From the NCBI GenBank assembly GCA_025059775.1, contig JANXCW010000013.1, positions 1 through 59,943 on the forward strand: a stretch of 59,943 bases of DNA, written 5' to 3'. The DNA is from Armatimonadota bacterium (GTDB lineage: Bacteria > Sysuimicrobiota > Sysuimicrobiia > Sysuimicrobiales > Sysuimicrobiaceae). Positions 16,285 to 51,335 of the stretch are shown here, in pieces; position 1 is the first letter of the stretch, and every line of letters starts with the position of its first letter. The notes beneath the pieces are model-generated. The model saw nothing but the letters and a program-made list of their open reading frames with translations. It had not been told where the DNA came from and made no database searches. The position numbers and the translations under genes were made by a program.

Positions 16285-16944
16285 ATGGGGAAGCCGTTGA
16301 CGAAACCAGAGCAGGGGTGCTGGACGGCTTCGCAGGGTGCAGGCACACCGGAACCCGGAGATGCGGCCCTCCGGCGTAAGCGGTTCGAGGAAATGGTGTC
16401 CCAGCACCTGGACGCCCTCTACGCGGCAGCCCTCCGGCTCACACGGAACCGCCAGGACGCGGAGGATTTGCTGCAGGAGACCCTGCTGAAGGCGTGGCGG
16501 TCCTATCACACCTTCGAGGAGGGCACCAACGCCCGGGCGTGGCTGTTCCGCATCCTGATGAACGCCCACATCGACCGGTACCGCAAGGCCACCCGGGAAC
16601 CAGAACTGAGCGATGTGGAGGATGTGGGGGAGTTCTACCTGTACACCAAGGTGCAGGAATCCGAGCAGCTGCGGGGCATTGGGGATCCGGAGAGGCTGTT
16701 GGAGCGCATCATGGAGCACGAGGTACGGGAGGCCCTGGAGAGCCTTCCCGAGCACTTCCGCAGCGTGGTGATCCTCGCGGACCTGCAGGGGTTCTCGTAT
16801 AAGGAAATCGCAGACATCCTGGGAATCCCCGTGGGAACCGTTATGTCCCGCCTCTTCCGGGGCCGGAGGTTGCTGCAGAAGAGGCTCTGGGACTACGTGC
16901 GGACGCACCATCGCATCTCGGAGGCAGGCACGGCGAAGGGGTAG
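16285..16944 (+). CDS. ECF RNA polymerase sigma factor (SigR/SigH-like)
   Basis: The sigma-2 region FEEMVSQHLDALYAAALRLT leads to AEDLLQETLLKAWRSYHTFE and ARAWLFRILMNAHID. The sigma-4 region ALESLPEHFRSVVILADLQG contains the helix-turn-helix YKEIADILGIPVGTVMSRLF. The spacing and sequence resemble the SigR/SigH oxidative-stress group. The next gene encodes a zinc-type anti-sigma factor overlapping by the stop codon, the standard arrangement. The ATG at 16285 is taken as start because TATAAT lies between it and the earlier in-frame ATG. Confidence 0.92.
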   Translation: MGKPLTKPEQGCWTASQGAGTPEPGDAALRRKRFEEMVSQHLDALYAAALRLTRNRQDAEDLLQETLLKAWRSYHTFEEGTNARAWLFRILMNAHIDRYRKATREPELSDVEDVGEFYLYTKVQESEQLRGIGDPERLLERIMEHEVREALESLPEHFRSVVILADLQGFSYKEIADILGIPVGTVMSRLFRGRRLLQKRLWDYVRTHHRISEAGTAKG

Positions 16945-17195
16945 TGGGGGCGAGCGCCTTGGACTGCCGGGAGTTCGCGCAGCGGCTCTGGACGTTTCTG
17001 GACGGAGAACTCGATGATGGAATCTGTCGCGAGCTGCGGGCGCACCTGGAGAACTGCGTGGAGTGCTGGGAGCACTACCGGTTTGAGGGGAAGCTGCGCG
17101 CCTTCGTCCGCCGATGCTGCCAGGAACCCGCTCCGGAGATCGTCCGCCGCCGCGTGATCCGCTTCATCGCCCGGCTCACTGCACGCGAAGGGTAG
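16944..17195 (+). CDS. Zinc-binding anti-sigma factor (RsrA-like)
   Basis: Small cytoplasmic anti-sigma factor of the ZAS family. The motif His34-x3-Cys38-x2-Cys41 (HLENCVEC) is complete, and Cys8 lies where RsrA has the extra cysteine that forms the redox-switch disulfide. Additional cysteines are at 28, 58 and 59. 83 residues. GTG start overlaps the sigma factor stop (TAGTG). It probably holds the partner sigma factor inactive until oxidation releases zinc. Confidence 0.87.
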   Translation: MGASALDCREFAQRLWTFLDGELDDGICRELRAHLENCVECWEHYRFEGKLRAFVRRCCQEPAPEIVRRRVIRFIARLTAREG

Positions 17196-35943: not shown

Positions 35944-37674
35944 CTACCGCCACGTCCCGGGTAAGCCGCTCAACGATTCCTCCAACCTTCGCCATCCCTG
36001 TGTTTGGAGCATCTCTTCCAGCCGTCCACCACGCTCTACCCCACCGACGATGCCACCGAACACGGGATCCCGCCAGAACGTCCCCGTGTCGAAGGACTGC
36101 TTGTAGGTCCGGAAGACCTCTCCGGTGGCCGGATCCCGAACATAGGTCTGGTCGCTTAGAAGGTTGGTCCAGGAGCGGGACATCCAGGTGTTGAACTCCT
36201 GGCTTTGACGCGTCATCTCCAGAACCATCCGGGTCTGCTCTCGACTCATGGCTCGGGATCGTTCAGCTTCCCGCAGCGCCCACTCCGGGTTACCCTGCGT
36301 CCCGAGCAAGACTCCTGCAAAGATCCCCATGTCATGGTCGAAGGTGTTTGCCCGTGCCTGCATCACCGTGGCTTGCAAGTAGGCGTGACAGCTGAAGTGT
36401 GCCGCCGCGAAACTCTGCGTCCGCGAGCCAAGACTCCGGATCTCTACGTAGGCCTTCCGCAGCAGTCCGCCTGAGGAGGCGGAGACGAAGAAGCGGGCGG
36501 AAAAGTCAAAAGCCTGCGTGCCTGGCTGTTGGGGGAGAGCGGTCAATCTGGGGCCCATGGCGCGCTTTAGTTGGTTCAGGAACTGGCTGACTCGGCTCCG
36601 CTCCGCGATTGGGCGAGCCTCCCGGAGCGTCCAGGAAGCGCCCGTTTCCATCCCCCACAGCTGCAGCAGGAACTGAGGGGTCTGGCTCTGCTGGGTGAGA
36701 CAAAGGCCGCCGGCCCGGGTGGCTGGGCTCCCGTTCCACGTGAGGCGGGTTTGGGCGTTTGCCGCAAACCGCGTCTGAACTCCTTCGGAGTTCACGTAGA
36801 TCACGTCAAAACGCATCACGCTCGGGCTTCTGATGAGGGCGAAGGCGGGCCAGCGAAGGCCTGCCTGGGGGACCACCCCTCCCTGAAACGCATACCCATC
36901 CGGTACCGGGACGTACCCTGCAACCATGCCCAAGAGCGTGTCGTAGACAGGCTGCATGCGGTACGCGACCCGCTGCCCCGGGGGGAGAAAGGTCAGCGAC
37001 CGAAGCACACTCAGAGCTCTCGCTCGCGTATTCGCATGGGCGTCCCGGGGAAGGTAGACGCTCACCGCGAGCACTGCGCTTTGCCCAGGGATGAGCAGGT
37101 GGGCTGCTTCATAGGAGAGCTTTGCGAGTCGGGCACGGGCCCGTGCGGAGGAGAGAACGAAGTTGTATTCCCCAATCTGTCCAGCAAGTTCCCAGGGGTA
37201 GCGGAGTCCCTGGGCCACGAGGAGGAGCCCTCCTGGAATCTCCTTGAAATGCAGAGGAGCCCCTGTCTTGGAGAGCCGCCGGGTCTCTTCGGCGAAAGGC
37301 GCTACCACCCGGATGGGGGACGTCTTTGGAGCACCTCGGACAAGGAGGAACGCCTCGAAGTCGCTGAATAAAAGTCCGTAAGGCCGGATGCGGACGTGCC
37401 AGCCGTCCGGGAGGGTAGCGGCAAATCCATGTAGCCGGTTCGTAGCCCGCTCTGCAGCATTCACCGGAAGACTGCCAGCCAGGGCCAAACTCACAAGTAG
37501 AACGAAAAGCCATCCACCGCGCTTGCCAAGAGCACGTCTCGGAATTCGTTGATTCCAAGCCTTCTCGCGAATCCCCTCGCTCCTTTCGGTCCGTTTACCC
37601 ATTCCAGGCCATCTGACGCGGAGCAGTACAGACCTCATGACGCGCTTACCCCATACACATCCCCGCTCAGCCAT
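35944..37674 (-). CDS. Large secreted protein of unknown function
   Basis: About 576 residues. A long basic N-terminus precedes an export segment GGWLFVLLVSLALAGSLPVNA. The mature protein starts with a PsbP-like beta domain (HGFAATLPDGWHVRIRPYGL) similar to those in two other genes of this cluster. A second similar domain follows near GGLCLTQQSQTPQFLLQLWG. The Gln/Arg-rich C-terminus (MSREQTRMVLEMTRQSQEFN) has FRTYKQSFDTGTFWRDP. ATG 37674 has GGGGAG before it; other Met codons up to 37600 are possible. A TTAAG repeat lies 125 bp upstream. Last gene of the minus-strand cluster. Confidence 0.7.
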   Translation of the reverse strand: MAERGCVWGKRVMRSVLLRVRWPGMGKRTERSEGIREKAWNQRIPRRALGKRGGWLFVLLVSLALAGSLPVNAAERATNRLHGFAATLPDGWHVRIRPYGLLFSDFEAFLLVRGAPKTSPIRVVAPFAEETRRLSKTGAPLHFKEIPGGLLLVAQGLRYPWELAGQIGEYNFVLSSARARARLAKLSYEAAHLLIPGQSAVLAVSVYLPRDAHANTRARALSVLRSLTFLPPGQRVAYRMQPVYDTLLGMVAGYVPVPDGYAFQGGVVPQAGLRWPAFALIRSPSVMRFDVIYVNSEGVQTRFAANAQTRLTWNGSPATRAGGLCLTQQSQTPQFLLQLWGMETGASWTLREARPIAERSRVSQFLNQLKRAMGPRLTALPQQPGTQAFDFSARFFVSASSGGLLRKAYVEIRSLGSRTQSFAAAHFSCHAYLQATVMQARANTFDHDMGIFAGVLLGTQGNPEWALREAERSRAMSREQTRMVLEMTRQSQEFNTWMSRSWTNLLSDQTYVRDPATGEVFRTYKQSFDTGTFWRDPVFGGIVGGVERGGRLEEMLQTQGWRRLEESLSGLPGTWR

Positions 37675-37798
37675 TGACCGCTCCCCGGCCACCTCCGGCA
37701 CCTCCCTTCGCCGTCCCTTTCGGGATACGGACTCGATATCCCTTTCTCTCTAGCTTTCTCTAACTACAATTACATCACAGAAAGAATCCGGCATCCGG

Positions 37799-37814
37799 CT
37801 TAACGTCGACTTAA
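37799..37814 (-). promoter_or_regulatory. TTAAG-N6-TTAAG direct repeat (candidate SARP box)
   Basis: Minus-strand TTAAG at 37810-37814 and 37799-37803, overlapping the stop codon of the DUF3137-like gene and 125 bp upstream of the secreted-protein gene. GATTCT lies 10 nt downstream where a -10 is expected; a poor match. Confidence 0.5.
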
Positions 37815-38642
37815 CTGCTCCAGGGCCTCCGCTGCAGCCCAGAGCCATCTACGAAGATTGTCAAGCCCTTTCTGGGGCAGGGACTCAGCTGCGTCAGGAT
37901 GGAGGAGGTCGACTTCGCACGGCACAAACGCGTACACGCAGTCAGCCCTACGGATGACCAGAGGGCCATCCATCCCGGGAGAGGGCAAGATTTCCTCGAT
38001 GGCCGGATCCATGCGGGGGATACGGGTCACTGCGACAAGGCCCTGGAAGACCGTGCTGCGGGCCCCCCGAGTACGGTACAGAAGCTGCATCTGGGCGATA
38101 GCAAGGGAGGATCGCGCCTTGCGCGGGGTCAGTAGGACTTGCCACACGACGTGGTTTGCAGGGAAACGCGCACGGACGAGGCTCAGGAAATCCGCGGCGG
38201 ATCCGAAAAGGTCGGGGGAGTAGTCTTTTGTGAGCTCCTGGTACTCCAGGCCCAAGCCCTCTAGGATCCTGGGGAGGAGTTCCCGGCGGTATCGGACGTA
38301 GAAGGATGTCCGATGGAGGATGGCTTCGAGAATCCACACCAAGAGGAACATCGGGATCCCGAGAATCGCCAAGGCGCCCGCGGCGGTGAAGAGCAGGTCT
38401 TCCCACCGGGGGTAGAGGAAGCCGACCAGGAAGGCGAGGAGGCCTGCGACGATACCCATGAGCACGGCCGAGGTGGCTAGCATCCCGAGGAGGGACGCGA
38501 CGCGCGCGGTGGGTGCGATCCGGAGTCGTTCCAGCTCCAGCTGCTCCAAAAGCGGGCTGAGGGCAGAAAGAATGGGTTCGACTCGCGTCCGGAGGTCTCG
38601 GGACAATGCCTCGAGGTCCTCGCTCAGATGGTGGAACGCCAA
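37800..38642 (-). CDS. DUF3137-like membrane protein
   Basis: 280 residues. An N-terminal cytoplasmic helix (SEDLEALSRDLRTRVEPILS) is followed by two transmembrane segments (LLGMLATSAVLMGIVAGLLA and LLFTAAGALAILGIPMFLLV). A cytoplasmic domain has VRYRRELLPRILEGLGLEYQ, then STVFQGLVAVTRIPRMDPAI. This YKREllP...FkGl order is reminiscent of DUF3137; the assignment is tentative. Overlaps the upstream gene, which encodes a paralogous membrane protein. Function unknown. Confidence 0.72.
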   Translation of the reverse strand: MAFHHLSEDLEALSRDLRTRVEPILSALSPLLEQLELERLRIAPTARVASLLGMLATSAVLMGIVAGLLAFLVGFLYPRWEDLLFTAAGALAILGIPMFLLVWILEAILHRTSFYVRYRRELLPRILEGLGLEYQELTKDYSPDLFGSAADFLSLVRARFPANHVVWQVLLTPRKARSSLAIAQMQLLYRTRGARSTVFQGLVAVTRIPRMDPAIEEILPSPGMDGPLVIRRADCVYAFVPCEVDLLHPDAAESLPQKGLDNLRRWLWAAAEALEQLSRR

Positions 38643-39898
38643 TTCGCCCTCCCTCGGACGAAGTCCAGCAATCGCTCAGCGGGCAACCCTGCCGTCAGGC
38701 CGGCCAAGTAGACCACTCTGAGGAGAGCCCGGAGGTCTCGGGTGCACTTTTCTAGGGCCCAGCGGCCGTCGATGCGCCGCAGGGGGCTGGGTTCCAGAAA
38801 CCCTGCCCAGGGAAGCAAGGCGTAGGTGTAGCCCTCGCGGATCTTCGGATGGAGGATACGCTGTACCTGGGTGCTTTCGCGGATGAACACCTGGAAATGG
38901 CGGTCGAACTCCGAGTCTCCGATGGGGACCTGAAGCATCCGTTTGAGATCCGTCCGGAGCCCGGGTTCCCACTCGTCGAAGCGGCCGAGCAAGCTGGACA
39001 CGGGGGCCACAGCCACCTCAGAGCCGTAGACGGTTCCCTGTCCCACTCCCACCAGACCGTAGAACTGTCTCTCACTCCGACCGGGAGGCCCTGGCTGGCC
39101 AAGCCCGCGACGTTTCGGAATCCTCGGCAGAACGTCGGCCTTCGCCAGGACCATCCGGCATCCCTCGATCCGAGCCTCCAGAGCCAGCCGCACGTTCGGT
39201 GGCCGGCCCCCTACGGAGAAGTATAGAATCCAGCCGATGAGGAGGAATAGCGCGTAGGCGGGCAGCAGGGGACCACCTGTGAGCACGGCTGCGAGGAGGG
39301 TACCTCCGAGGGCTGCGAACGTCCTTCCGATCGCCGGGCTGAGGAGAGACAGTACGAGCCCGACGATCAGCAATCCGGCTGCGAGCCCAGCCACCAAGAC
39401 GCCAGCGATGAGAGGAGCCGTAACGACCCACACAGGGAAGCTCAGCCTCTGCCGGTCTGCCTCCAGGGAGGAGAACCCTGGTTGAGCCGCTGTCGGAGTT
39501 CCTCTGTCCGCGCGGGGACCTCCCGATCCAGAGTCTGTAGAATTCTTCCCGAGTTCACCATATCTCTGACCGTCCTCACTCAGGAAGCTAAGCGAGAGGG
39601 ACAGGCAGAACACCTCCTGGGCCTTCCATAAAGCCCCGGGACATGGTCTCAACCGGGGTAGTGGGAAGATGGCTACACCGAGGTCGCGCGATCCCTGGGG
39701 GATCCGAAGTCGGCGCATGGGGTCACCGACGGGTACCCGCTGTCTTCGCAGTCGGCTCCAGAGCCGCACATGCAGATCCGGTACACAGATGGTCTCCTGG
39801 AGTGGGCCCGACCCTGAATACTCGCGGAAGTGCCGGTCTGCATCCCGCCAAGCGACACCTGCTCGCCGGAAAGACCGCACCTCGTAGTGGGCCAGCAT
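38624..39898 (-). CDS. Membrane protein with C-terminal DUF3137-like half; possibly a fusion or frameshifted gene
   Basis: The open frame is 424 residues. The C-terminal 270 parallel the next gene: two or three membrane segments (VVTAPLIAGVLVAGLAAGLL to YALFLLIGWILYFSVG), then GLVGVGQGTVYGSEVAVAPV and a helical end. The N-terminal 145 residues (MLAHYEVRSFRRAGVAWRDA...) are unlike the paralogue. In another frame an ATG at 39561 gives MVNSGRILQTLDREVPARTE, which does resemble the paralogue's N-terminus and would join this frame after a shift near 39480. Either the N-terminal part is a separate upstream domain or a frameshift exists. The start 39898 is supported by a SARP-box promoter. Confidence 0.6.
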   Translation of the reverse strand: MLAHYEVRSFRRAGVAWRDADRHFREYSGSGPLQETICVPDLHVRLWSRLRRQRVPVGDPMRRLRIPQGSRDLGVAIFPLPRLRPCPGALWKAQEVFCLSLSLSFLSEDGQRYGELGKNSTDSGSGGPRADRGTPTAAQPGFSSLEADRQRLSFPVWVVTAPLIAGVLVAGLAAGLLIVGLVLSLLSPAIGRTFAALGGTLLAAVLTGGPLLPAYALFLLIGWILYFSVGGRPPNVRLALEARIEGCRMVLAKADVLPRIPKRRGLGQPGPPGRSERQFYGLVGVGQGTVYGSEVAVAPVSSLLGRFDEWEPGLRTDLKRMLQVPIGDSEFDRHFQVFIRESTQVQRILHPKIREGYTYALLPWAGFLEPSPLRRIDGRWALEKCTRDLRALLRVVYLAGLTAGLPAERLLDFVRGRANWRSTI

Positions 39899-40056: not shown

Positions 40057-40579
40057 TTACGGGGAGCAGGATACATAGGAGGTTCGCATTCTCCGGAACA
40101 GCAGTACAAGATCCGGAAACTCCGGGGCCGGCACTTCGCCCGCGAGGAACGCCACACGCATGGCCTGAGCCTCAGGGTGGAGGATTCAGACCCAGAACAC
40201 CATCCAGGTTTGGGAACCTGAGCTCCCCCAACGCGCCTCACCTTCCGTGATAGACCCGCGGTGCCCAGTCAGACGCCACTGCAGGCCCGGCACTCGGCGG
40301 AGGCCGAGGAGATCCTGCAGGATTTCCTGAGCGGCCCGCTGCGGGCTTAGGTTTCCCCGGATGGCGAGATCAGGCAGGACGAGGAACCGCGGAGTCTGGA
40401 ATGGGCCTTCCCGGTGGAAGATCACTAGGCCTATGTCTTGTGCCCAATGTACCCGCTAGGAAGCCGGGTGCAGGATCCGAAAGTGTCCGCCGGGGTCGCG
40501 ATAGGGGATGAGGGGTGGTATGTCATTAGGAAGATGCCGCCAGCCAGAGGAGAGAACTCACCGCCCACGCGACCATCAT
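40057..40579 (-). pseudogene. Decayed secreted PsbP-like domain protein gene
   Basis: Starting at ATG 40579 (overlapping the PrsW stop) the frame gives a signal peptide MMVAWAVSSLLWLAAS and stops. The neighbouring frame continues PPLIPYRDPGGHFRILHPAS, then TAG where Trp is expected, then RVHWAQDIGLVIFHREGPFQ and TPRFLVLPDLAIRG. Further on there is an in-frame TGA after TWMVFWV, then MRVAFLAGEVPAPEFPDLVL up to the TAA at 40057. The Y-RDP-x-x-HFRILHPASW pattern parallels YIDPDAEFAVDYPETW in the gene at 42 kb. One frameshift and two nonsense codons mark it as dead. Confidence 0.72.
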
Positions 40580-41727
40580 GTCCGCGAGATCTCCAAGGAG
40601 TCCAGTTGCGATCGGAGGTAGACGATCCGTTCCTGGAGGACTTCCTCCGGGGCACCCGGCGGTCGACCCCGGGATATCCGCCACCGGGCGAAGGCGAGTT
40701 CGGCTACCGTGTCGTAGAACTGTCGCAACGCCATCCAGCCTCCCGGTCCCTTCCGGGTGAAGGCGTCCCATAGACGCCGGGACTTGATCCCGGGGGTGGC
40801 CACCGCCCGCAGCTCGTCTTCTGACAGGACCCCTGAGGAGACGAAATCCACCAAGTAGGTGCGGACCAGCTGTCGCTCTCTCTTTTCGGCTAGAAAGGCG
40901 AGCACACCCAGGATCAGAACGGCAGGGAGCAGGAGGATGCCAAAGAGAACAGGGGCCAGGAGCAGAGAGGCTCCGCTTCCGACCGTGGCCTCCGTAGCCA
41001 ATGCGCTGGAGTTCCACAGGGCGTGGAAGAGGACCGCGGCCAGATAGCCGGTGGGAGGGACGATGAACTGCGCAATCCCTCCTCGTTCCCGCGCATACCC
41101 CAGGGCCGCGCCCGTGCACCCGGTCCAGACCGAGTGCATGAGTCCGAGGAGGATCACCCGTAACAGGAAGAGGACCGTGAGCCCTGCAAACCCGCCGGCT
41201 GCAAATGCACGGCCCAGGTACAAGACGTTTTCCGCAACACCGAACCCGAGCCCGACCAGGGCACCGTAGACGAGGCCGTCAGTCAGATTGTCGAACTCCT
41301 GGCGGAGGAAAGCCGCCATCCCGAGCAGTGCCACGCCTTTCGCAGTTTCCTCCACCAAAGGCGCCACAAGTCCGACGGTGATCCGGAGGGCCCAGAGGGG
41401 ACCCAAGACCGCCTGGAGGATGGCCCGCCAGAGCTCGTTGAAAACCAGCGCGAGGAGGATGGAGACGGTGGATCCCCAGAAGAAGGCCGCCAGCAGCAGC
41501 CATCCTGGCTCCTTCTCGTGGCGGTCAATCCAGAGGATGAGGCCTGCGTAAAGGGGCACGGGGAGCACCGAGGTCAGGGCTCCCACGAGGAATGGAACGA
41601 CGCCACGGGTTTCCGCGAGAAGAAGGAACAGGACCAGCAGGCCCACGAGGGAGAACAGCCCTGCAAGGGTTAGCTGCAGGAACAGGTAGGGATTCGCTGA
41701 GCGCCTCACCACTTGAGGGGGCTGCAC
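40576..41727 (-). CDS. PrsW-family intramembrane metalloprotease, copy 1
   Basis: 383 residues, about nine transmembrane segments. PrsW motifs: YAGLILWIDRHEKEPGWLLL, the EExxK motif in LVAPLVEETAKGVALLG, the E in LVYGALVGLGFGVAENVLY, and two His in LLGLMHSVWTGCTG and VLFHALWNSSA. A C-terminal cytoplasmic domain of about 100 residues (LWDAFTRKGPGGWMALRQFY, LAFARWRISRG) is shared by the other PrsW copies here. Family members such as B. subtilis PrsW cleave anti-sigma factors. GTG start with a strong GGAGGTGA site. Its stop overlaps a dead secreted-protein gene. Confidence 0.93.
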   Translation of the reverse strand: MQPPQVVRRSANPYLFLQLTLAGLFSLVGLLVLFLLLAETRGVVPFLVGALTSVLPVPLYAGLILWIDRHEKEPGWLLLAAFFWGSTVSILLALVFNELWRAILQAVLGPLWALRITVGLVAPLVEETAKGVALLGMAAFLRQEFDNLTDGLVYGALVGLGFGVAENVLYLGRAFAAGGFAGLTVLFLLRVILLGLMHSVWTGCTGAALGYARERGGIAQFIVPPTGYLAAVLFHALWNSSALATEATVGSGASLLLAPVLFGILLLPAVLILGVLAFLAEKRERQLVRTYLVDFVSSGVLSEDELRAVATPGIKSRRLWDAFTRKGPGGWMALRQFYDTVAELAFARWRISRGRPPGAPEEVLQERIVYLRSQLDSLEISRT

Positions 41728-41770
41728 AACTCACCTCCTATCCACTGGTTCGGCATCCTCACGTCCTCGA

Positions 41771-42520
41771 TCACGGTGTGGGAGTGGGGCTTGGAGTTGA
41801 CCATGGCCCTGGTGCAGCACCCATCAGCTGGTAGCTCTGCAGCATGTGCTGGAATACCGGGAAGAGGCTTGGCCATACGGCCTCCTGACTCCTGTAGGCC
41901 CTCATGTACCACATGGAGGTCTGCACCGTGAAGGAGTGCAGGATCGTGAAGTGCACGGCACCCCGCATCCGCTCTCCCCTGGTATTCGTCCACACGGCCT
42001 CCAAATACGCTTCCTCCGTCCCCGGGGACGGACCGGGTCGCACCCATTGCTGCACAACCTGGTAGTCGGGGTACCGAGTCTGCTCTCCTCGGACGACATG
42101 GTCCAGAAGCTGTGAGCCGGGAAGAAGCCTTCCGGTTCCGGCTCCCAGGGCCCTACTGAAGAAAGCCTGAGTACCGTGACGTGGATCTTCACCGGGCGGG
42201 TAGAAGAGCACACCCTGACGATGCGGAGAGACCCTCCAGGTCTCCGGGTAGTCCACTGCGAATTCTGCGTCCGGGTCGATGTAGCGAGCGTAACGAACGG
42301 GTCCGGTTGGTGGGAAGGGTACTGGTGAGGACTCAGATGGTCTTGGAGGTGAGGGCTGGGAGGGGGACCAGGGGGGAGCAGGAGTGGGGCGAGGGAGGAA
42401 CAGATACCACACCACTCCGCCGATCCCCAACAGCATGAAGAACCCCACTACGAGGACCGCCAAAACTGCTACTACAGCCCATGGACTCAGGCCATCTTGC
42501 CCCCTCAGAATCCGGTTCAT
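41771..42520 (-). CDS. Membrane-anchored protein with extracytoplasmic PsbP-like domain
   Basis: About 249 residues. A short cytoplasmic N-terminus (MNRILRGQDGLSPW), one transmembrane segment (AVVAVLAVLVVGFFMLLGIG), a Pro/Ser-rich linker (TPAPPWSPSQPSPPRPSESS) and a beta domain starting VRYARYIDPDAEFAVDYPET. It starts one base after the stop of PrsW copy 2, so it is coupled to it. Single-pass topology makes it a plausible substrate or partner of the protease. No specific family assigned. Confidence 0.78.
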   Translation of the reverse strand: MNRILRGQDGLSPWAVVAVLAVLVVGFFMLLGIGGVVWYLFLPRPTPAPPWSPSQPSPPRPSESSPVPFPPTGPVRYARYIDPDAEFAVDYPETWRVSPHRQGVLFYPPGEDPRHGTQAFFSRALGAGTGRLLPGSQLLDHVVRGEQTRYPDYQVVQQWVRPGPSPGTEEAYLEAVWTNTRGERMRGAVHFTILHSFTVQTSMWYMRAYRSQEAVWPSLFPVFQHMLQSYQLMGAAPGPWSTPSPTPTP

Positions 42521-42521
42521 G

Positions 42522-43682
42522 TCACACCAGCCCCAGGGCCTCAACTCGTTCACGCAGGGCGTGCACTCGCTCCCGCAACGCCTGAACGTCCCGCCCTCCT
42601 TCTCCACGCTCCTGCCGCCACAGAGCAAAGGCCAAGTCTACCTCGGCATCGTACAGCTGCCGCAAGAGGTTCCAGGCTCCGGGTCCTCGTGTCGTCAAAG
42701 CCGACCACAGGCGACGTCCGCGCTCCCGTGGCCGCGTCAGCAGCGCCACATGCTCGGCCGCCATGCGTCCCGCTTCTATCTCTTCTCGGAGGCCTTCCTG
42801 GATAGCAGCAACCTCCCGTCTCCATGCGAAGTATGCAAGGACCACCAGGAAAAGCAGCGGGATACCTTCGATGACGAAGGCCATCAGAGGAACAAGGAGG
42901 AGGCCGGCGTCTCCGACAGAGCGGACGGCGGCGGGCAGGGCGAAACTGGCAAGGAGGTTCCACAGGAAGTGTAGGAACACGGCGCAGAAATAGCCGGCGA
43001 CTGGGGCGACGTAACGCGCAGGGCCCATTGTCTCTCGAGCGTACCCGAGCCCGGCACCCGTACAGGCGGTGTAGACCGAGTGGCCCAGACCTCCCACCAC
43101 GGCCCGGAGTACGAACCCGAGGGTGAGACCGGTCAATCCGCCTTCGCGTATCGCCTTAGCGAAGTACAGGATGTTCTCCGTGGCGGCGAAACCGAGTCCT
43201 GCTAAGGCGCCGTAGACCAGACCGTCCACGGTATTCGTGAATTCCCGGCGCCAGAGGAAAAAGATCAGCAGAACCGCAAACCCTTTGCTCGTCTCCTCCG
43301 TCAGCGGGGCCAGGAAAGGGGCGCTGAGCTGCCGACCCAGCTGGGGACCGAACAGGAGCTGCAAGAACACACTCCCCACGGTGTTGAATACTAGGCTGAA
43401 GAAAGTAGCTACCACCCCTCCCCACAGAAGGGCTCCCAGAAGTAGCCATCCAGGCTCTTTCTCGTGCCGGTCTAACAGCAGGATCAGCCCCGCATAGAAC
43501 GGGACTACCGACAGCGCTGCGAAGGAGGCCATGAGGAATCGAGCGAACCCTCCTGCGGCCTGATAGAACAACGCCATCTGCAGGAAGGCGAGCACAAACA
43601 GGATGAGTCCGCTCCCGACGAGCCCCAGGGCTTTTACGAAGGTGTCGGGCCCCAGAGTGAGGCGGGCTCCCGTGACCTCCAC
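42522..43682 (-). CDS. PrsW-family intramembrane metalloprotease, copy 2
   Basis: 386 residues. LILLLDRHEKEPGWLLLGAL, APLTEETSKGFAVLLIF (EExxK), LVYGALAGLGFAATENILYF, GGLGHSVYTACTGAG and AVFLHFLWNLLA carry the PrsW catalytic glutamates and histidines. C-terminal domain LWSALTTRGPGAWNLLRQLY and DLAFALWRQERGE matches copy 1. GTG start after GGGAGC, 11 bases after the preceding gene. All putative active-site residues are present. Confidence 0.93.
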   Translation of the reverse strand: MEVTGARLTLGPDTFVKALGLVGSGLILFVLAFLQMALFYQAAGGFARFLMASFAALSVVPFYAGLILLLDRHEKEPGWLLLGALLWGGVVATFFSLVFNTVGSVFLQLLFGPQLGRQLSAPFLAPLTEETSKGFAVLLIFFLWRREFTNTVDGLVYGALAGLGFAATENILYFAKAIREGGLTGLTLGFVLRAVVGGLGHSVYTACTGAGLGYARETMGPARYVAPVAGYFCAVFLHFLWNLLASFALPAAVRSVGDAGLLLVPLMAFVIEGIPLLFLVVLAYFAWRREVAAIQEGLREEIEAGRMAAEHVALLTRPRERGRRLWSALTTRGPGAWNLLRQLYDAEVDLAFALWRQERGEGGRDVQALRERVHALRERVEALGLV

Positions 43683-43693
43683 AGCCTAGCTCC

Positions 43694-44326
43694 CTACTGC
43701 AGGGCAAACGGCACGAGCAGGACCACCGCCGGCTGACCGCCCTGAGGGACGGCGAGCACGAACGCGTACAGGCCCGGAGAGCCCTGGCTCGTATCGAGGC
43801 TATACAAATGCCGGCCTGGGCCTTCCAGGGGTTCGGGGTTCACCACCGGGATCACCCGTTCCTGGGACTCGATGCGGACAAACAGCCGGACGACCTGTGT
43901 ATCCATGCGTGTCACGCGATAGTCCACTCCCACCTTCTCCCCCACGCGGAACACCCCCGCGGGCTCGGTGGGCATACCATCCGGCCCTAGTCGCACCGTT
44001 CTTCCACCCTCCACCTCTACCCCCGGTACCTGTTGAGGGCACACACCTTTCCCGAGGGCTTCTGGCCCTTGAAGCGGTGTCTGCGGACATGGTTCGGTCT
44101 GTCCCCTCTCTTCAGGGCCAGGGGGTGGAGGAGGTGTGGGGACTACGGGCGAGGGTTGTGGCCCCAGCCCGGTAGGTTGAGGTGCGGGCTGGGGAGGGAC
44201 GGGGGCCGGGGTTGGTGCAGGCGGCCTCGGCCAGGGGAACACAAACGCTGCCACCACGGCCACTACAGCGAGGAAGGTCAGGCAGCCACAGCCAAGCCCG
44301 CCGCCGATGAGCAAGTTCCGGTTCAT
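43694..44326 (-). CDS. Membrane-anchored Pro-rich protein, partner gene of PrsW copy 3
   Basis: 210 residues. MNRNLLIGGGLGCGCLTF leads into one membrane segment (LAVVAVVAAFVFPW), a long Pro-rich linker (about residues 33-90) and a small beta domain (EPAGVFRVGEKVGVDYRVTR, QVVRLFVRIESQERVIPVVN). The start MNRxLLxG resembles the gene at 42.5 kb. Start overlaps the PrsW copy 3 stop (ATGA). Exported domain of unknown function; likely substrate or partner of the adjacent protease. Confidence 0.78.
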   Translation of the reverse strand: MNRNLLIGGGLGCGCLTFLAVVAVVAAFVFPWPRPPAPTPAPVPPQPAPQPTGLGPQPSPVVPTPPPPPGPEERGQTEPCPQTPLQGPEALGKGVCPQQVPGVEVEGGRTVRLGPDGMPTEPAGVFRVGEKVGVDYRVTRMDTQVVRLFVRIESQERVIPVVNPEPLEGPGRHLYSLDTSQGSPGLYAFVLAVPQGGQPAVVLLVPFALQ

Positions 44327-45270
44327 CGTTCCGCCTCCCGGATCCGGTTCCGGTAGAGCTGCAGTTCCGCCTCACTCGCGAGTCCTCGTTCTAGACGCCG
44401 TCGGGCGAAGGCGAGCTCGGCGAGGGGTTGCCGGATCGCCTTAGGCACGTCCGACCACCGATTCCGTAGCACTGCCTCTACATACTCTTGCGGAATATGT
44501 CCTTCTCGAGCCTCCACTGGAAGGTAGCGGTGAATCACGTTCCGCTCATGACGCAGAGCCCAAACCACAATCCCCCCCAGGGCCATGACTCCTGCCCAGT
44601 CCGCGACGTTCCGGGCGAAGACCAGGAATGCGGAAGGTCCTGTTCTCGAGACGATCAGAGCCGCGAGGGCATCATACGCCGCGTGGTACAGGGCAGTCAC
44701 TGCGAACCCACCGACCGGCAGCCACCACGCAGCGGAGCCAGTAAGCCCGAACTCGCGCACCGCTCCCAGGGATGCCCCGAAGAGAGCGCCAAAGGCGCTG
44801 TGGGTGAGACCGGTCAGGAGAATACCGAACGCCTCCCCTGCGCCGATGCCTCCTCCAAACCCGGCTCTCGAGAGGTCCCAAAGATACACCACAGACTCCG
44901 CCAAGGCGAACCCCGCCCCCACGATTCCGCCGTACACAACTCCGTCCAGAGTCCCGTCAAACTCCCGGGGGAGCAGCCGGAATAGAACCAGCATCACCAG
45001 GGCTTTCATCCCCTCCTCCACGACCGCTCCCGCGGGATTGGGCCCGAAGAATGCCGCGTTCAGGGCGTGGAAGGCGGCTGGATAGACGGACATGCGGATT
45101 CCCGCCAAGCGCTCCACGATTATGGTCAGCACGGGAGCTGCGATGGCGCCACCGAACAGGGCTGCACCCAGCACGCTTCCGGGTTCCTTCTCGTGGCGGT
45201 CCGCCCAGTACAGGATGACTACGTACAGGACGGTGAGGATCAGAACGATCAGGGCCGCACTCAATACCAT
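44323..45270 (-). CDS. PrsW-family intramembrane metalloprotease, copy 3
   Basis: 315 residues, shorter at the N-terminus than the other copies. VILYWADRHEKEPGSVLGAA, AGAVVEEGMKALVML (EExxK), VVYGGIVGAGFALAESVVYL, LLTGLTHSAFGALFG and ALYHAAYDALAAL carry the PrsW motifs. The C-terminal LAELAFARRRLERGLASEAE matches the other copies. TTAGGAGACG before the ATG is a fair ribosome-binding site. An 11-bp tandem repeat lies 45 bp upstream. Confidence 0.92.
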   Translation of the reverse strand: MVLSAALIVLILTVLYVVILYWADRHEKEPGSVLGAALFGGAIAAPVLTIIVERLAGIRMSVYPAAFHALNAAFFGPNPAGAVVEEGMKALVMLVLFRLLPREFDGTLDGVVYGGIVGAGFALAESVVYLWDLSRAGFGGGIGAGEAFGILLTGLTHSAFGALFGASLGAVREFGLTGSAAWWLPVGGFAVTALYHAAYDALAALIVSRTGPSAFLVFARNVADWAGVMALGGIVVWALRHERNVIHRYLPVEAREGHIPQEYVEAVLRNRWSDVPKAIRQPLAELAFARRRLERGLASEAELQLYRNRIREAER

Positions 45271-45314: not shown

Positions 45315-45336
45315 CTTTCAGGAAGCTTTCAGGAAG
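45315..45336 (-). repeat. 11-bp perfect tandem repeat CTTCCTGAAAG, two copies
   Basis: Minus strand CTTCCTGAAAG twice in direct succession (45326-45336 and 45315-45325), overlapping the stop of the small membrane-protein gene and upstream of PrsW copy 3. Shares CCTGARRG and the 11-bp period with the repeat at 40035-40056; may be a regulator site. Confidence 0.75.
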
Positions 45337-45709
45337 TCGGATTGTCTTTCTCGTCGCGGAGCCATGGCCCTTTACCCTGCAGGAAGGCGTATGTGTTCAC
45401 TGCGGCTGCTGCAAGCCAGAGGAGGAATCCCAGTAAGTTCCACCCGATCCCCCCCAGGGTCACGATTCCCGCGACGGTTCGGTTGCCGGTGGCCCCCGCA
45501 ATCAGTAGGAACACCAACGGCAGGAACCCGAACAGCACCGACAGCAAAACTCCCCAGCCCAAGGCCCAGAGCGCGTGACGGCGGACAAGGGGATGCGGGG
45601 ACTTGAGGAAGAAGTTCCCGATGGCGATCCACCACAGCCACCACCCACCGATGGCCACGATCCGTTGTATCGGGGTGAGCTCCACGAGAGGTTGAGATCC
45701 GGTTTGCAT
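45329..45709 (-). CDS. Small polytopic membrane protein, unknown
   Basis: 126 residues with three or four membrane segments (IVAIGGWWLWWIAIGNFFL, ALGWGVLLSVLFGFLPLVFLL, LGGIGWNLLGFLLWLAAAAV). The motif SPHPLVRRHALWALGWG between the first two resembles the conserved loop of DUF4870-like small membrane proteins, but I would not name it firmly. First gene after the SARP-type promoter at 45.76 kb; the PrsW operon follows on the same strand. Confidence 0.72.
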   Translation of the reverse strand: MQTGSQPLVELTPIQRIVAIGGWWLWWIAIGNFFLKSPHPLVRRHALWALGWGVLLSVLFGFLPLVFLLIAGATGNRTVAGIVTLGGIGWNLLGFLLWLAAAAVNTYAFLQGKGPWLRDEKDNPTS

Positions 45710-45755
45710 GCCCCACTCCCGTATGGCGTTCAGACCCGCGGCCGCGGGCTCCCCC

Positions 45756-45787
45756 ACACTATCCGGAGGGCCTTAAAACTTGCTTAA
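45756..45787 (-). promoter_or_regulatory. SARP-type promoter: TTAAG-N6-TTAAG-N10-TAGTGT
   Basis: Minus-strand TTAAG at 45783-45787 and 45772-45776, then exactly 10 nt and TAGTGT (45756-45761). Drives the small membrane protein and probably the whole PrsW operon. It partly overlaps the end of the SARP regulator gene. Confidence 0.7.
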
Positions 45788-48504
45788 CGCCTGCGTCCGT
45801 AACGCGGTGAACGATCCGAGAGGCCCTGGAGGAGGGCACGGGTCTCCGGTATAGGGTCCACCCCGATCTCATCCTGCAGACGCGCTTCGAAGTTCTGGTA
45901 GATCCGCAGGGCAGCCTGCCGGTGGCCCAGGGAGAGCAGATGGCGGAGGAGGGCCTGGACGGCCGGTTCATGGAGGGGATCCAGGTCCAGGACTCGTTCC
46001 AGGAATCGAATCCCCGGTTCCGGAGCCGCGTGGCAGCCCGCGTGGTAGAGGCAGTCCACCACCCGCCGTCGGAGGGCATACCGGAAGTCGTCCACCCCGC
46101 GTAGGTCTACCCCCGGTGCCACCGGCTCCCGATACAGGTCCAGCACGGCCTCCGCGTCTCCCCGGTTCAGGGCCTCCTCCAGGTTCCAGAGATCCACCCG
46201 GGCGTTGTGGAGTCTCCCCGCGGTCAGGTAGGTGGGAACCCGCCACGGCTGGAGGGCCCTGCGCAGGTGGTGCATCTGGACGTGGAGGTTGTTGCGGGCC
46301 TGCTCGGGATGCGCCTCCGGCCAGAGCTGGTCCGCGATGGACTCCGGATCCCGCCGCAGGACCAGAAGCACAAGGAGGGCACGGGCGGTGGGTGAGAGCA
46401 AAACCTCCTCCCCCAGCCGCGCCACGCGGAAACTCCCCAGGACCTCCACCTCTAGAGGTGGGACCATCTCCCTCCGGCGCTCGATGGCCTCCTTCCACCC
46501 GGCCCGAAGCACTTCTTCGATGGGGTAGACGTCCGCGAGCTCGGGGCGGTGCCTGGGGAGTTCGGAGAGGGGCAACAGTGCCGATAGGACCGCAGGGCCC
46601 AGGGAGGTGAGCTTCAGCAACGCCTCCAGATCCTCTTCCCGCCGGAGGATCCGGAAGCGGGCCGCGTGGAAATACGCCTGCTCCTCCCGATCGTGTGGCG
46701 GTGGGGGGAGACGGGATGCAGCTTCCTCGTGGCGCCCCAGCATCCACAGGCTGAGGGCGGATTCCAGCCGGGTCCAGAACCCGCGCACCGGCTGCGCCAC
46801 CCGGAGGGATTCCTCAAGAAGGCCCCGTTCCCGCAGGGTGCGGATCCACAACCCCCGGACTGTATCTTCCAGCTCCGGGTTCTCCGCGGTCTCCGCGAGA
46901 ACCACCAAGCGCTCGAAGGGAGCGGGATCCCGCTCCAGGGCCGCCTGCCAGGCGCCCGCCAGGGCCTCGGCCCAGAAGTTCCACCCCGGGCAGGCCTGTG
47001 CCCTGCGGAAACATGCGAGCGCCTCCTCCCGCTGGCCCGCGAGCAGCAGGAGGCGGCCGGTCTGCAGGAGGGTGAGGGGCAGGTTGTGGGAACGCTCGCG
47101 TTCCTGGACTTCCGCGGTGCGGCGGTTATAGGCGAGGTAGTGGTCGAGGTCTCCGTCCCGCTGCCACCGAAGGAATGCCATGTTGTAGCCGATGGGGTGG
47201 AAGACGTAGGGGTCGTCGGGTGGGAGGAGTCTACGTGCCTCTTCCAGGACCGCCTCGAACCGGTCCAGCTGTCGAGCCTTCCACAAGGGCCAGCACGTCC
47301 AGTTCCAGAACCGGGCGGCGGCGCGTGGATCCCCCCGTGCCACCAGCCGCGATCCTTCCTCCACCGCCCGCAGGGCGAGCGGGAGGTCCACCTCCGGGGC
47401 GTTGTATGCCACGAGTCCCCAGGCCCGGATCGCCACCTCCGGGTGTGAATCCCCCGTGTCCCGGGCGAGGGCCTCCAGACGGGGAAGTGCCTCCCGGAGT
47501 CGGCCCACCAGACACAGAGCCATGCCGTACGCAAGCCTCCGCCAGGGGCCACCCATCCCCGGCAGCGCCCGACACCACCGGATCAGGGAGGAGGGGACAG
47601 TTGAAGCGAGGTCGAGGGCTGTGGGGGAGTCGAGTAGATCCCCCAGTTCCATCCACAGTCCCGCCCGGAAGTAAGCTTCCGCCCGTAGCTCCGGGGGAAG
47701 CTCAGGGGCTCGCAGACGGACCGCCTCCTGAACCGCGGGCCGTAGGGAATCGTGCAGGGCCTCCGTGAGCAAGGCGTGCAGGCGGAGGCCTTGGGCGGTG
47801 CGTTGGACGAACCCGCTGCTGACGAGCTGCTGCAGGGCATAGTCCCCCGGGGAATCCGGAAGCGCAGGGAGGGCAGAGAGGAGCAGCAGGAGCTCCCACG
47901 CCTCCTGTCCCAGGGATTCCCGGACCCCCCGTACCAGGGCGTTCCGGAAATCCAGGGTTCCCGTGAGGGCTGCGATGTGCACCGCAATGGGCCATCCCCC
48001 GGAGCTCTCCCAGATCTCATAGGCCCTGCGGTCATCGGCCACCAGCTGGCGGACCTCAAGAAGAGAGAACCGGAGGTCCTCCGCGGTCAGGTGCACCAGA
48101 CGGCCCCAAGCTCGGATCCGCGGGAGCTCGGGCCAAGGGAGCTCCGTGCGGCTGGCAAGGCCCAGGATCAGGGTATCCAAAGGCGCTCGGAGATTCGGGA
48201 CGTCGTCCGACACGAGGTCGTCCAGCACGAGAAGCGTGGGCCGATCGCTCAGGAGGGTCTGGAGAAACCTCCAGGAAGGGTTCTTCCCGATCCCCAGAGC
48301 ACGGCCGAGCTGCTCGAGAAGGGGGCCTGCCGCGGCGCTGCCCCACACCACCCGCCACCCGTTCGCCTGCAGCCGCTCCGCCCACTGCCGCAGCAGCACG
48401 GTCTTCCCATAGCCGTACGGCGCCTGCAGCCAGGCCACGTACCCACCCTGCTGCGGGAGGCGGTCCAGAAGCCGAGCCCGGGGAATCCACCGCGCGCCGT
48501 CCAT
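45784..48504 (-). CDS. STAND-like ATPase/SARP-BTAD transcriptional regulator, 906 residues
   Basis: The N-terminal NTPase has Walker A AWLQAPYGYGKTVLLRQWAE and Walker B PTLLVLDDLVSDD, followed by a MalT/AfsR-like arm and a long alpha-helical repeat region (about 270-650, TPR-like). The C-terminal OmpR-type winged helix (VEVLGSFRVARLGEEVLLSP, PTARALLVLLVLRRD, EQARNNLHVQMHHLRRAL) and bacterial transcriptional activator domain (FRYALRRRVVDCLYHAGCHA to EDEIGVDP-like end) are the SARP signature. SARPs bind direct repeats with 11-bp period upstream of -10. Such repeats occur at its own promoter and at neighbours, so it likely activates itself and the PrsW cluster. Confidence 0.9.
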   Translation of the reverse strand: MDGARWIPRARLLDRLPQQGGYVAWLQAPYGYGKTVLLRQWAERLQANGWRVVWGSAAAGPLLEQLGRALGIGKNPSWRFLQTLLSDRPTLLVLDDLVSDDVPNLRAPLDTLILGLASRTELPWPELPRIRAWGRLVHLTAEDLRFSLLEVRQLVADDRRAYEIWESSGGWPIAVHIAALTGTLDFRNALVRGVRESLGQEAWELLLLLSALPALPDSPGDYALQQLVSSGFVQRTAQGLRLHALLTEALHDSLRPAVQEAVRLRAPELPPELRAEAYFRAGLWMELGDLLDSPTALDLASTVPSSLIRWCRALPGMGGPWRRLAYGMALCLVGRLREALPRLEALARDTGDSHPEVAIRAWGLVAYNAPEVDLPLALRAVEEGSRLVARGDPRAAARFWNWTCWPLWKARQLDRFEAVLEEARRLLPPDDPYVFHPIGYNMAFLRWQRDGDLDHYLAYNRRTAEVQERERSHNLPLTLLQTGRLLLLAGQREEALACFRRAQACPGWNFWAEALAGAWQAALERDPAPFERLVVLAETAENPELEDTVRGLWIRTLRERGLLEESLRVAQPVRGFWTRLESALSLWMLGRHEEAASRLPPPPHDREEQAYFHAARFRILRREEDLEALLKLTSLGPAVLSALLPLSELPRHRPELADVYPIEEVLRAGWKEAIERRREMVPPLEVEVLGSFRVARLGEEVLLSPTARALLVLLVLRRDPESIADQLWPEAHPEQARNNLHVQMHHLRRALQPWRVPTYLTAGRLHNARVDLWNLEEALNRGDAEAVLDLYREPVAPGVDLRGVDDFRYALRRRVVDCLYHAGCHAAPEPGIRFLERVLDLDPLHEPAVQALLRHLLSLGHRQAALRIYQNFEARLQDEIGVDPIPETRALLQGLSDRSPRYGRRR

Positions 48505-48562: not shown

Positions 48563-49494
48563 ATGAACAGGATGGTTGCCGAAGGGATCCTGCTTCCGCT
48601 CTCCGTTTTCGGGTGCCTCTGGATTGCGTGGCGGGGCGTGCGGTACGAGCAGGACCTGCGCTATGCCCTCCTGGCCGTAGCGGCGGGAGCGGTAGGGGTA
48701 CCTGGGATCCTATGGGTGCTGGGGGCTGTCCTGCCCCCTTTCGAGGGACGCTGGCCGGCGTTCGTTGTGGTCTGGAGCACGGCACCTCCGCCCGCCTGGC
48801 GGGGAATGGTCGAGGAGCTGGCCAAAGCCGCGATGCTGCTGGGGGTTTCCCGGGGTTGGCCCGAGGGCATGCGGATCCCTTCGACGGGTTCCTTCGGGGG
48901 CTCTTCGTGGGGCTTGGGTACGCGCTTTCGGGCTTCTGGGGTCTCCTCGGAGGATCCTGGCCTTCCAGGAATCCGGGATCCCTGCTGCACCTGCTGGGCG
49001 GCGGCCTGGCGCAGGGAGCGTTGCTCGCGATCCTGGGAGCCACGGTAGGGTGGGCCCGGGCGCGGCAACCCGGCCTGCTGGTGCATGGTGCGGCGACGGT
49101 GGCAGGCCTTGTGGCGGCGGGGGGCGCGCACACCGCGTATCTGGCGCTCGTGGAAGCATTCCGCCAGGGAGGGCCCCTCCAGCCGCTGGTGGCCGCGGGG
49201 CTGCTGGCCTTCGAGTGGAGCGGGGTGGGGTTGCTTGCCGCCGGGAGGGTGTGGAGTGCGCGGCGGCAGCGGGAGCTCCTCAGGTGGTGCCTTTGGGAGG
49301 AGGTGGCCGCGGGCGTGGTCCGGGAGGAGGAGTACCACGCCCTGGCGGCGGACGGACGGGGCATGCCAGGGCCGGTGCGATCCGCCCTCGTGCGCCTGGC
49401 TTTTGCGAAGCGGCGGGTGGTGCGGGGGGTAGGACGGGCGGAGGAGGTGGAGGTCTGGCGGAAACGGGTGATGGAACTGCGGCGCGGACGGTGA
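48563..49494 (+). pseudogene. PrsW-like intramembrane protease gene, copy 4, frameshifted
   Basis: From ATG 48563 the frame encodes membrane segments and WRGMVEELAKAAMLLGVSRG (EExxK-like motif), then degenerates. The frame shifted by one base continues DPFDGFLRGLFVGLGYALSG, membrane segments and the C-terminal VRLAFAKRRVVRGVGRAEEV shared with the other PrsW copies, to the stop at 49494. The switch lies between about 48840 and 48880, near runs of G and C. The AEN glutamate of the second motif is replaced (YALSGFW), so the protein would be degenerate even without the shift. It reads divergently from the SARP gene. Confidence 0.72.
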
Positions 49495-51335
49495 GGTTCC
49501 TCCGCCGGGCCCTCGGGTGGGCGATCCGCGGGCTGGACGCCGGGGCTCAGTACCTGGGGCTCCCCGTGCGGTGGAAGGACCTGCAGGAGAGCGCGGGAGG
49601 GCTCTTCGGGCTGCTCCGGCTGGGTCCCTGGGGAATCCTGGCGTTCGCCCTCCTGACAGGTACCTTGGGCGGGTTCGCGGCTGTGCTCTCCGTGTCTACC
49701 CCGGAGCGATCGCGCCTGCTGGGAACCTCGCTCGCGCTCGTCATGCTGGGCGCCATCGTCGCCTTTGCCTTCGCGCTTTTCCTCTCCGAGATCCGCGGAC
49801 TGCATCCCGTCCTGCGGTTCGCAGGCGGGATGTATGCCCTCTGGTACCTGCTGCTCCCGCCCGTGCTCGCGCTACCGCGGTGGGGTGCGCTGTTGCCCGC
49901 CTGGACCCTGTACGCCATCGAAGTCGGCCGTCTTGCGGCCGACCGCAGGAGTCCTCTCTGGCTTGTTCCCTGGGTTCTGCTCCTGGGACGCCTCAGCCCC
50001 GTGTTGGTGGAGCCCCTGTGGGCTTCGGTGGCCGCGTGGGCTATGGTGTACGGGTTCCTCGGGCTGGTGCTCTTCCGGGTAGCCCGCTCCGATCTTCCCG
50101 CGCCGCGGGCGGTGCTCTTCTGGAGCATGGCGGCGGTCTACGCCTGGGGCATTGTGCAAAGCCCTGCCCGGTTCGGAGAGGCCCTGCGGATGGGCTACGA
50201 CGCCCTGTTCATGTTCCTCGGGCTCTTCTGGATGTGGCTCGCCGCAGACCTGGTGGACGACGCCTCCGAGGTAGCGGAACGGGCGGTGCGCCGATTGCGG
50301 GGCGCGTTCCAGCACCGGGCCGTAGTGTGCGGGATTGCGTGCGGCTTGCTGGGGATCGGAGGGATGGGGATCCTAGTCACCGTGATGCCCGCGGCGGTGC
50401 TGGACGCCGTCCCGCAGGCTGCGGCCGTCCCCCTCATGGTCCTGCTCCGGGATCAGTGGCACGAGGGCACCCTTCTGTGCGGCCTCCTGCTGGCCGCGAC
50501 AGGCGCGGTAACCCTGTGGAGGGCCTGGAGGAGGGAGGATCCCGTGTCCGCGGCCTCCGACGCGGTGGCCTCCGCGGTTGTGGTAGGGCTGGTGTACCTC
50601 GGGGCCCGCCAGGCGTGGTCCGCGCTGTCGGAGGTGCAGGCGCCGGAGGGTTGGTGGCCGCTTTTGCTCGCTTCGGTGCCGGTGGTGGTGGAGGAGCTGA
50701 AGCAGACCTCCAAGGGCGTGCGGGAAAGCTCCGCGGCTCTCCTGACAGGCGGGGTGGCACTTCTGGGGATCGCTGCCACCGCCTTCCGGTTTGCCCAGGA
50801 ACCTCCGGCAGCTCTCCGGACCACCACCCTGTATCCCTTTCTGGGCATGGTGCTCTGGGGACTTCCGCACCTCGTGGCCCGGCTTGGAGCAGGATGGCAG
50901 GCGGAGATCCGATCCACCGCCTTCTTCCTCACGGGGTACCTCACCGCCCTGCCCGCCGCCCTCCTGCTGCCGCATCTGCGGACGGGCTCTCCGGCCCTCG
51001 CGGTGCTCCTGTGGCCGTGGGCGCTGCGGGCGGCCCGTCTGCGGCTGCCTCCCGCGTCCGGAGGGCAGGTGGCGGCGGGACTCCTGTTGGCGAGCGGTAC
51101 CCTGGCGTTCTACTACGAGCCCCTGTTCCTCCCCGTTCCCTTCGTCCCGTGGACGCAGGCGGTCCTCCAGCGACTCGGGGAGGTGCGGGCTACGGAGATG
51201 TTGGACTGGACCCAGCTCGTGGCGTGGACAGGAGCCGCCCTGAGCGGGGTGACCTTCGGTCTCGGTGGCAGGAGGGCGACGTGGGTAGCTGCCGCCGTCC
51301 TGTGGGCGGGCTGGAACCTGCTGCTCCTCCGGTGA
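49491..51335 (+). CDS. Large polytopic membrane protein, unknown
   Basis: 614 residues with about 16 predicted membrane segments and few charged loops. It starts MRFLRRALGWAIRGLDAGAQ on a GTG that overlaps the PrsW-like stop (GTGA). One loop, ASVPVVVEELKQTSKG, recalls the EExxK region of PrsW, but no matching second motif or histidines are evident, so I do not call it a protease. No family recognised. Context suggests an envelope function with the SARP/PrsW cluster. Confidence 0.75.
   Translation: MRFLRRALGWAIRGLDAGAQYLGLPVRWKDLQESAGGLFGLLRLGPWGILAFALLTGTLGGFAAVLSVSTPERSRLLGTSLALVMLGAIVAFAFALFLSEIRGLHPVLRFAGGMYALWYLLLPPVLALPRWGALLPAWTLYAIEVGRLAADRRSPLWLVPWVLLLGRLSPVLVEPLWASVAAWAMVYGFLGLVLFRVARSDLPAPRAVLFWSMAAVYAWGIVQSPARFGEALRMGYDALFMFLGLFWMWLAADLVDDASEVAERAVRRLRGAFQHRAVVCGIACGLLGIGGMGILVTVMPAAVLDAVPQAAAVPLMVLLRDQWHEGTLLCGLLLAATGAVTLWRAWRREDPVSAASDAVASAVVVGLVYLGARQAWSALSEVQAPEGWWPLLLASVPVVVEELKQTSKGVRESSAALLTGGVALLGIAATAFRFAQEPPAALRTTTLYPFLGMVLWGLPHLVARLGAGWQAEIRSTAFFLTGYLTALPAALLLPHLRTGSPALAVLLWPWALRAARLRLPPASGGQVAAGLLLASGTLAFYYEPLFLPVPFVPWTQAVLQRLGEVRATEMLDWTQLVAWTGAALSGVTFGLGGRRATWVAAAVLWAGWNLLLLR

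Follow-up and report, generated by a model that had tools for sequence, protein, structure and literature searches.

PrsW proteases are widespread, occurring in many bacterial phyla and in archaea, and to our knowledge few of their physiological targets are known, RsiW being the standard one. PrsW acts as the site-1 protease of RsiW (reviewed in PMC10202637), and Zhang et al. (2012, PMC3482391) proposed it as the release peptidase and conduit for toxins that carry N-terminal PrsW domains. In the available portions of PMC10202637 and PMC3482391, anchored PsbP-like or beta-sandwich partners encoded together with PrsW are not described.

Here we analyse a PrsW gene cluster in a stretch of 59,943 nucleotides from an Armatimonadota bacterium (contig JANXCW010000013.1 of assembly GCA_025059775.1), referred to below as the window. 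A first-pass annotation of this DNA knew of no described system of this kind, and we likewise found none in the open-access literature; the same literature yielded nothing linking PrsW to SARP regulators, apart from a paper on royal jelly protein in which each term occurs once, and nothing on PrsW in Armatimonadota.

Organization of the PrsW cluster

The source genome, which is 99% complete, has three PF13367 genes, all of them intact, located in the window and arranged head to tail on the minus strand. The features of the cluster are listed below; numbers of transmembrane (TM) helices and signal peptides come from hydropathy and from reading of the sequence.

49491–51335, plus strand: 614-aa protein with nine TM helices, adjoining PrsW0; 55–61% identical in G001, G002, G004 and G005
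48563–49494, plus strand: PrsW0, a divergent PrsW-like gene, beyond the SARP gene as seen from PrsW1; frameshifted in the window
45784–48504, minus strand: STAND-type regulator with C-terminal winged helix and BTAD, SARP-like (Pfam BTAD 8.9e-11, nSTAND_NTPase5 1.5e-8)
45329–45757, minus strand: small protein with three TM helices, between the SARP gene and PrsW1; 51–76% identical in G001, G004 and G005, fragmentary in G002; no Pfam family
44323–45270, minus strand: PrsW1, predicted intramembrane protease (PF13367 7e-24; all catalytic motifs; PrsW1 clade, support 93/94)
43694–44326, minus strand: P1, single-pass, with N-terminal TM helix bearing a GCGCL motif, Pro-rich stalk and C-terminal beta-sandwich (alignments, AF2 model); ATGA overlap with PrsW1
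42522–43682, minus strand: PrsW2, predicted intramembrane protease (PF13367 3.9e-47; all catalytic motifs)
41771–42520, minus strand: P2, single-pass, with N-terminal TM helix, Pro-rich stalk and predicted PsbP/Mog1-fold domain (AF2, Foldseek)
40576–41727, minus strand: PrsW3, predicted intramembrane protease (PF13367 3e-44; all catalytic motifs; PrsW3 clade, support 100/100)
40063–40579, minus strand: pseudogene of P3, the exported PsbP-like protein paired with PrsW3 (HMM E 4.5e-32; tblastn)
38624–39898, minus strand: membrane protein, possibly DUF3137-like (weak Pfam match, E 0.02); homologues in the same place in G001 and G002, fragments in G005; start uncertain
37800–38642, minus strand: membrane protein with two TM helices, a downstream member; 41% identical in G002, fragment in G005
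35944–37701, minus strand: exported protein of 516–585 aa with a tentative, very weak N-terminal PsbP-like stretch (A2 HMM, 2.0 bits); start uncertain

By profile and motifs, PrsW1, PrsW2 and PrsW3 are members of the PrsW family, with predicted proteolytic activity. Their PF13367 matches lie above the gathering score in the Pfam profile search, the EExxK motif is kept in all three (EEGMK, EETSK and EETAK), and GFxxxE, the His of GLxHS and the later H motif are present, in agreement with the earlier statement that the catalytic Glu and His motifs are retained. Against NF033739, the equivalog model of Bacillus subtilis PrsW, the three proteins score 40.5–49.3 bits, under the curated cut-off of 225. 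A sequence search for a solved PrsW structure found none. The C-terminal domain ending in LAFAxxR, which the first-pass annotation had picked out as shared by the three proteases, is indeed present, but it is not special to them: it occurs in 77 of 78 PrsW loci, spread over several phyla. We therefore rejected it as a distinguishing mark, since it is general to this branch of PrsW.

Each PrsW gene is followed by a gene for an exported protein, as had been described, and the start of the partner lies at −4 nt (P1), +1 nt (P2) and −4 nt (P3) relative to the PrsW end. Taking the window and its relatives together, the overlap is exactly 4 nt in 16 of 18 PrsW–partner pairs (PrsW1–P1, 8/8; PrsW2–P2, 4/6; PrsW3–P3, 4/4), these being pairs from related genomes and not independent observations. 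The background, obtained with our own gene caller, is 8 such overlaps among 46 same-strand gene pairs in the window. Unlike the overlap within pairs, the spacing from P1 to PrsW2 consists of gaps of 9–26 nt. Co-production of matched PrsW–partner pairs is well supported, and the pairs are probably translationally coupled at the 4-nt overlap.

The gene at the head of the cluster encodes, on its domain content, a SARP regulator with winged helix and BTAD; the BTAD match is above its cut-off and that to Trans_reg_C (1.4e-4) below its own. Orthologues that are 66–72% identical lie at the same position in G001, G002, G004 and G005. The first-pass annotation suggested that this regulator controls the modules. 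The gene is on the same strand as PrsW1, with one small gene between them (gaps of 26 and 58 nt), and the PrsW transcription unit appears to begin with it. The proposal of SARP control draws on position, and no SARP gene adjoins PrsW1–P1 in G011 or in the Gemmatimonadetes locus. A second possible PrsW–SARP linkage was seen in Chloroflexota (L108:7971-12410), where the gene 60 nt after a PrsW gene encodes a protein of 1133 aa whose sequence resembles that of a SARP regulator.

PrsW0 is a fourth PrsW-like ORF of the window, overlooked in the first-pass annotation. It is intact in G001 and G004, where EExxK is kept, and is likely to be a pseudoenzyme because the motif-2 Glu and motif-3 His are missing there. 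Most of the genomes are metagenome-assembled (MAGs), and single frameshifts, such as that of PrsW0 in the window, may be assembly errors. Elsewhere in the window (16396–17195, plus strand), an ECF sigma factor gene overlaps a short zf-HC2 anti-sigma gene lacking a TM helix. A toxin or defence reading of the locus was also tried with PADLOC and rejected: no family was convincing, and the single marginal match was to the regulator (E 0.0098).

Features of the partner proteins

Judged by hydropathy and sequence reading, P1 and P2 both appear to cross the membrane once, N-in, and to have a Pro-rich stalk, which fits the earlier description of two partners; the cytosolic tail of each is short and devoid of any regulatory domain. 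The AF2 model of P2 (pLDDT 84) matched PsbP (2xb3) in Foldseek with an E-value of 1.8e-7 and a probability of 1.00; further matches were LpqN (6e5d) and two Pro-rich antigens of mycobacteria, MTC28 (4ol4) and Apa. As modelled, P2 has the PsbP/Mog1 alpha/beta fold, and P2b and P3 share this predicted fold by homology in the P2 alignment. P2 itself has no significant Pfam match to the PsbP or DcrB profiles, and the NCBIfam PsbP match of P3 (E 0.0069) is below the cut-off. No open-access literature was found that treats LpqN together with PsbP. Where the TM helix of P2 begins, at the N-terminus, a Gly is conserved and precedes a hydrophobic residue and Ser/Thr, an arrangement resembling a prepilin-type cleavage site without the usual Glu. 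The AF2 model of P1 is a beta-sandwich with only weak matches to other beta-sandwich folds; as none fell below E 0.001, no family is claimed. A Pfam match of P1 to Cloacin (E 0.064, below cut-off) was taken as chance and rejected.

Among G001, G002, G004 and G005, P2b (after P2) and P3 (after PrsW3) are optional members of the cluster. The third partner of the window had been called a pseudogene, and this proved correct: it has no open reading in any frame, and the segment 40069–40527 contains two in-frame stops (one TGA and one TAG), with the N-terminus in another frame. In tblastn this segment matches the intact P3 genes of G002 (E 8e-45) and G005 (E 2e-39), and also P3 of G004, which runs off the contig end; identity to P3 of the relatives is 45–55%. 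Both P2b and intact P3 have a signal-peptide-like start and no Pro-rich stalk. On this account intact P3 is probably secreted rather than anchored. The earlier claim of partners with an export or anchor segment holds as regards export, but no membrane anchor is visible in the P3 relatives. In G001, a P3-like exported gene (L032:14261-14788) overlaps by 4 nt the possibly DUF3137-like membrane gene, not PrsW3.

Conservation of the protease–partner pairs

The order SARP, small TM protein, PrsW1, P1, PrsW2, P2, PrsW3 is kept in G001, G002, G004 and G005. The clusters of G002 and G005 also carry a PrsW4; in G004 a different contig has part of a PrsW4 gene, with a P1-type gene after it. In G017, from another family of the order, a different SARP gene is followed by PrsW1–P1–PrsW2–P2. 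P1 adjoins PrsW1 in all eight genomes that carry it (G000, G001, G002, G004, G005, G017, G011 and the Gemmatimonadetes MAG, L087), and in the tree the PrsW1 clade consists of exactly these eight P1-bearing genomes. The nearest PrsW outside the clade, that of G021, has no P1-type partner. The genes flanking PrsW1–P1 in G011 are unrelated, so the pair stands alone there, in a junction read across two contigs (L159 reversed, and L187) on the basis of their common end sequence. The PrsW1–P1 pair is the minimal module. A search of 295 genomes from the class to which the Gemmatimonadetes MAG belongs found P1 in that MAG alone.

A second clade brings together PrsW2, PrsW3 and PrsW4 from the window's family. 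Its outgroup is the PrsW2 of G017 together with a PrsW2-like gene of L087, which is consistent with duplication inside that family. The distances of P1 and PrsW1 correlate (r = 0.97), a result that vertical descent alone could also give. In the PrsW, P1 and P2 genes pN is well below pS, indicating purifying selection. G003, a 100% complete genome of the same family, has no PrsW, P1, P2 or SARP match, and the locus is therefore dispensable in the family.

The pairing claimed in the first-pass annotation was searched for in relatives, a check set beforehand, and was found: it is one-to-one, and for PrsW1–P1 the 4-nt overlap recurs in 8/8 genomes. As read from the genomes, the protease–partner pairing is real and is conserved in a lineage of uncultured bacteria.

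Fused, degenerate and unpaired forms

In G017 and G026, degenerate PrsW-like domains without EExxK carry a PsbP-like domain fused at their C-terminal side; in G011 the two are encoded by adjacent genes. The PsbP-like call on the fused domain is tentative, given its weak HMM scores (DcrB, E 0.0065; A2, 8.3 bits). Because these fused or adjacent PrsW domains lack EExxK, the association between PrsW and partner may persist without catalysis. Fusions of a degenerate PrsW-like membrane domain to a PsbP/DcrB-like exported domain were located at L036:12407-13804 and L166:7200-8618; that of L036 adjoins a gene for an exported Trypsin_2 protein (PF13365), and that of L166 has an exported neighbour as well. 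In L160, PrsW-like and PsbP/DcrB-like domains are separate adjacent genes, again beside a Trypsin_2 gene. There are also P2-like domains at sites without a neighbouring PrsW, in G011 (C210), G016 (C1) and G026 (C1).

Discussion

We propose that the locus is a lineage-specific tandem set of two-gene modules, each of a PrsW and an exported partner, in which P1 and P2 are cleaved by PrsW. The probability that we attach to this putative cleavage is about 45%. We infer that PrsW encounters its partner in the membrane and that the two act together as one functional unit. Each module would make one PrsW and one exported partner, probably through translational coupling at the 4-nt overlap. PrsW would then cut anchored P1 or P2 near the outer face of the TM helix, as in the site-1 cleavage of RsiW, and so shed or switch the extracytoplasmic domain. 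Because the cytosolic tails of P1 and P2 are short and without regulatory domain, the output is expected outside the cell or at the membrane, and not in the form of an anti-sigma factor set free in the cytosol. The SARP-like regulator, whose gene appears to head the unit in the window's family, is probably linked to expression of the whole set. In favour of this reading are the conserved order and overlap, the presence of P1 with all eight members of the PrsW1 clade, the standalone pair of G011, the purifying selection, the intact motifs of the three proteases and the stalked anchors of P1 and P2. P3 and P2b speak against it: with a signal peptide each and without a stalk, neither should depend on PrsW for release. 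Also against it are the fusions without EExxK in G017 and G026, the P3-like gene of G001 that comes after a different membrane protein gene, the P2-like domains found apart from PrsW, and the lack of the locus in G003. A more ambitious and more tentative version is that these are tandemly duplicated, dedicated and diversified protease–client pairs, each PrsW shedding a single surface protein translated along with it, with a SARP-type regulator governing the set. If true, this would be a form of site-1 proteolysis whose output is extracytoplasmic and in which no sigma factor takes part.

The apparently unanchored P3 and the degenerate PrsW–PsbP fusions mean that the partner may be an accessory or sensing subunit, instead of or besides a substrate. 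Such a subunit would bind something outside the cell and gate or recruit PrsW, with the substrates lying elsewhere. This is possible, if on the doubtful side: PsbP-like domains joined to PrsW-like domains without EExxK (G017 and G026, adjacent in G011), the secreted look of P3 and P2b, and a conserved overlap that fits subunits made in step all point this way, whereas the anchor and long Pro-rich stalk that P1 and P2 each possess are a layout suiting release, and the fused proteins, whose PsbP-like call depends on weak HMM scores, may be repurposed relatives. It is unlikely that the PrsWs and exported proteins are simply co-regulated parts of an envelope-maintenance operon that do not act directly on each other. 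The other membrane proteins and the exported protein of the cluster would suit such an operon, as would P2-like domains without PrsW in G016 and others, but the 4-nt overlap is retained in a pair-specific way across families and in the Gemmatimonadetes MAG, and PrsW1–P1 is standalone in G011.

Classical regulated intramembrane proteolysis, in which the PrsWs would cleave a membrane-anchored anti-sigma factor as PrsW does RsiW, we consider very unlikely. Whilst the genome does contain genes for M50 site-2-type proteases and zf-HC2 anti-sigma-like proteins, the cluster itself has neither a sigma nor an anti-sigma gene, the window's ECF/anti-sigma pair, which covers one of the genome's four zf-HC2 genes, has no TM helix, and an anti-sigma domain would not fit into the short cytosolic tails of the partners. 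More improbable still is the scheme that Zhang et al. (2012, PMC3482391) put forward, PrsW-dependent export and release of toxins. Here the partners have genes and export signals of their own, and predicted PsbP-like and beta-sandwich folds; no toxin domain was found in them or fused C-terminally to PrsW, no toxin family reached a curated cut-off in Pfam or NCBIfam, and no immunity gene was recognised.

The PrsW1 clade, with an overlapping gene for an exported partner in every member found, offers candidate substrates or subunits of PrsW, and the fused degenerate forms are a means of asking whether that partner is cleaved or serves as a subunit.

Comparison with known systems

The system of B. 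subtilis PrsW and RsiW resembles the present one in its PF13367 domain with EExxK, GFxxxE and His motifs, and in having single-pass proteins with extracytoplasmic domains as candidate targets. In contrast, the PrsWs of the window have an extra C-terminal domain and score far under the equivalog cut-off, the partner is encoded next door and has no anti-sigma domain, and there are several protease copies per operon. With the polymorphic toxins of PMC3482391 the locus shares a PrsW membrane domain tied to an exported domain, including the fusions of G017 and G026; here, however, partner and protease are mostly encoded separately, the partner brings its own TM helix or signal peptide, and it is PsbP-like or a beta-sandwich with no recognised toxin. 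The predicted PsbP/Mog1 fold of P2 is common to mycobacterial LpqN, MTC28 (according to its PDB entry, a secreted proline-rich antigen) and Apa and to plant and cyanobacterial PsbP, from which P2 differs in being ∼10–16% identical, in its N-terminal TM anchor and in its coupling to a PrsW gene. Finally, the regulator combines BTAD, winged helix and NTPase in one protein, as do other SARP/BTAD–STAND regulators, but here it appears to be the first gene of a PrsW operon.
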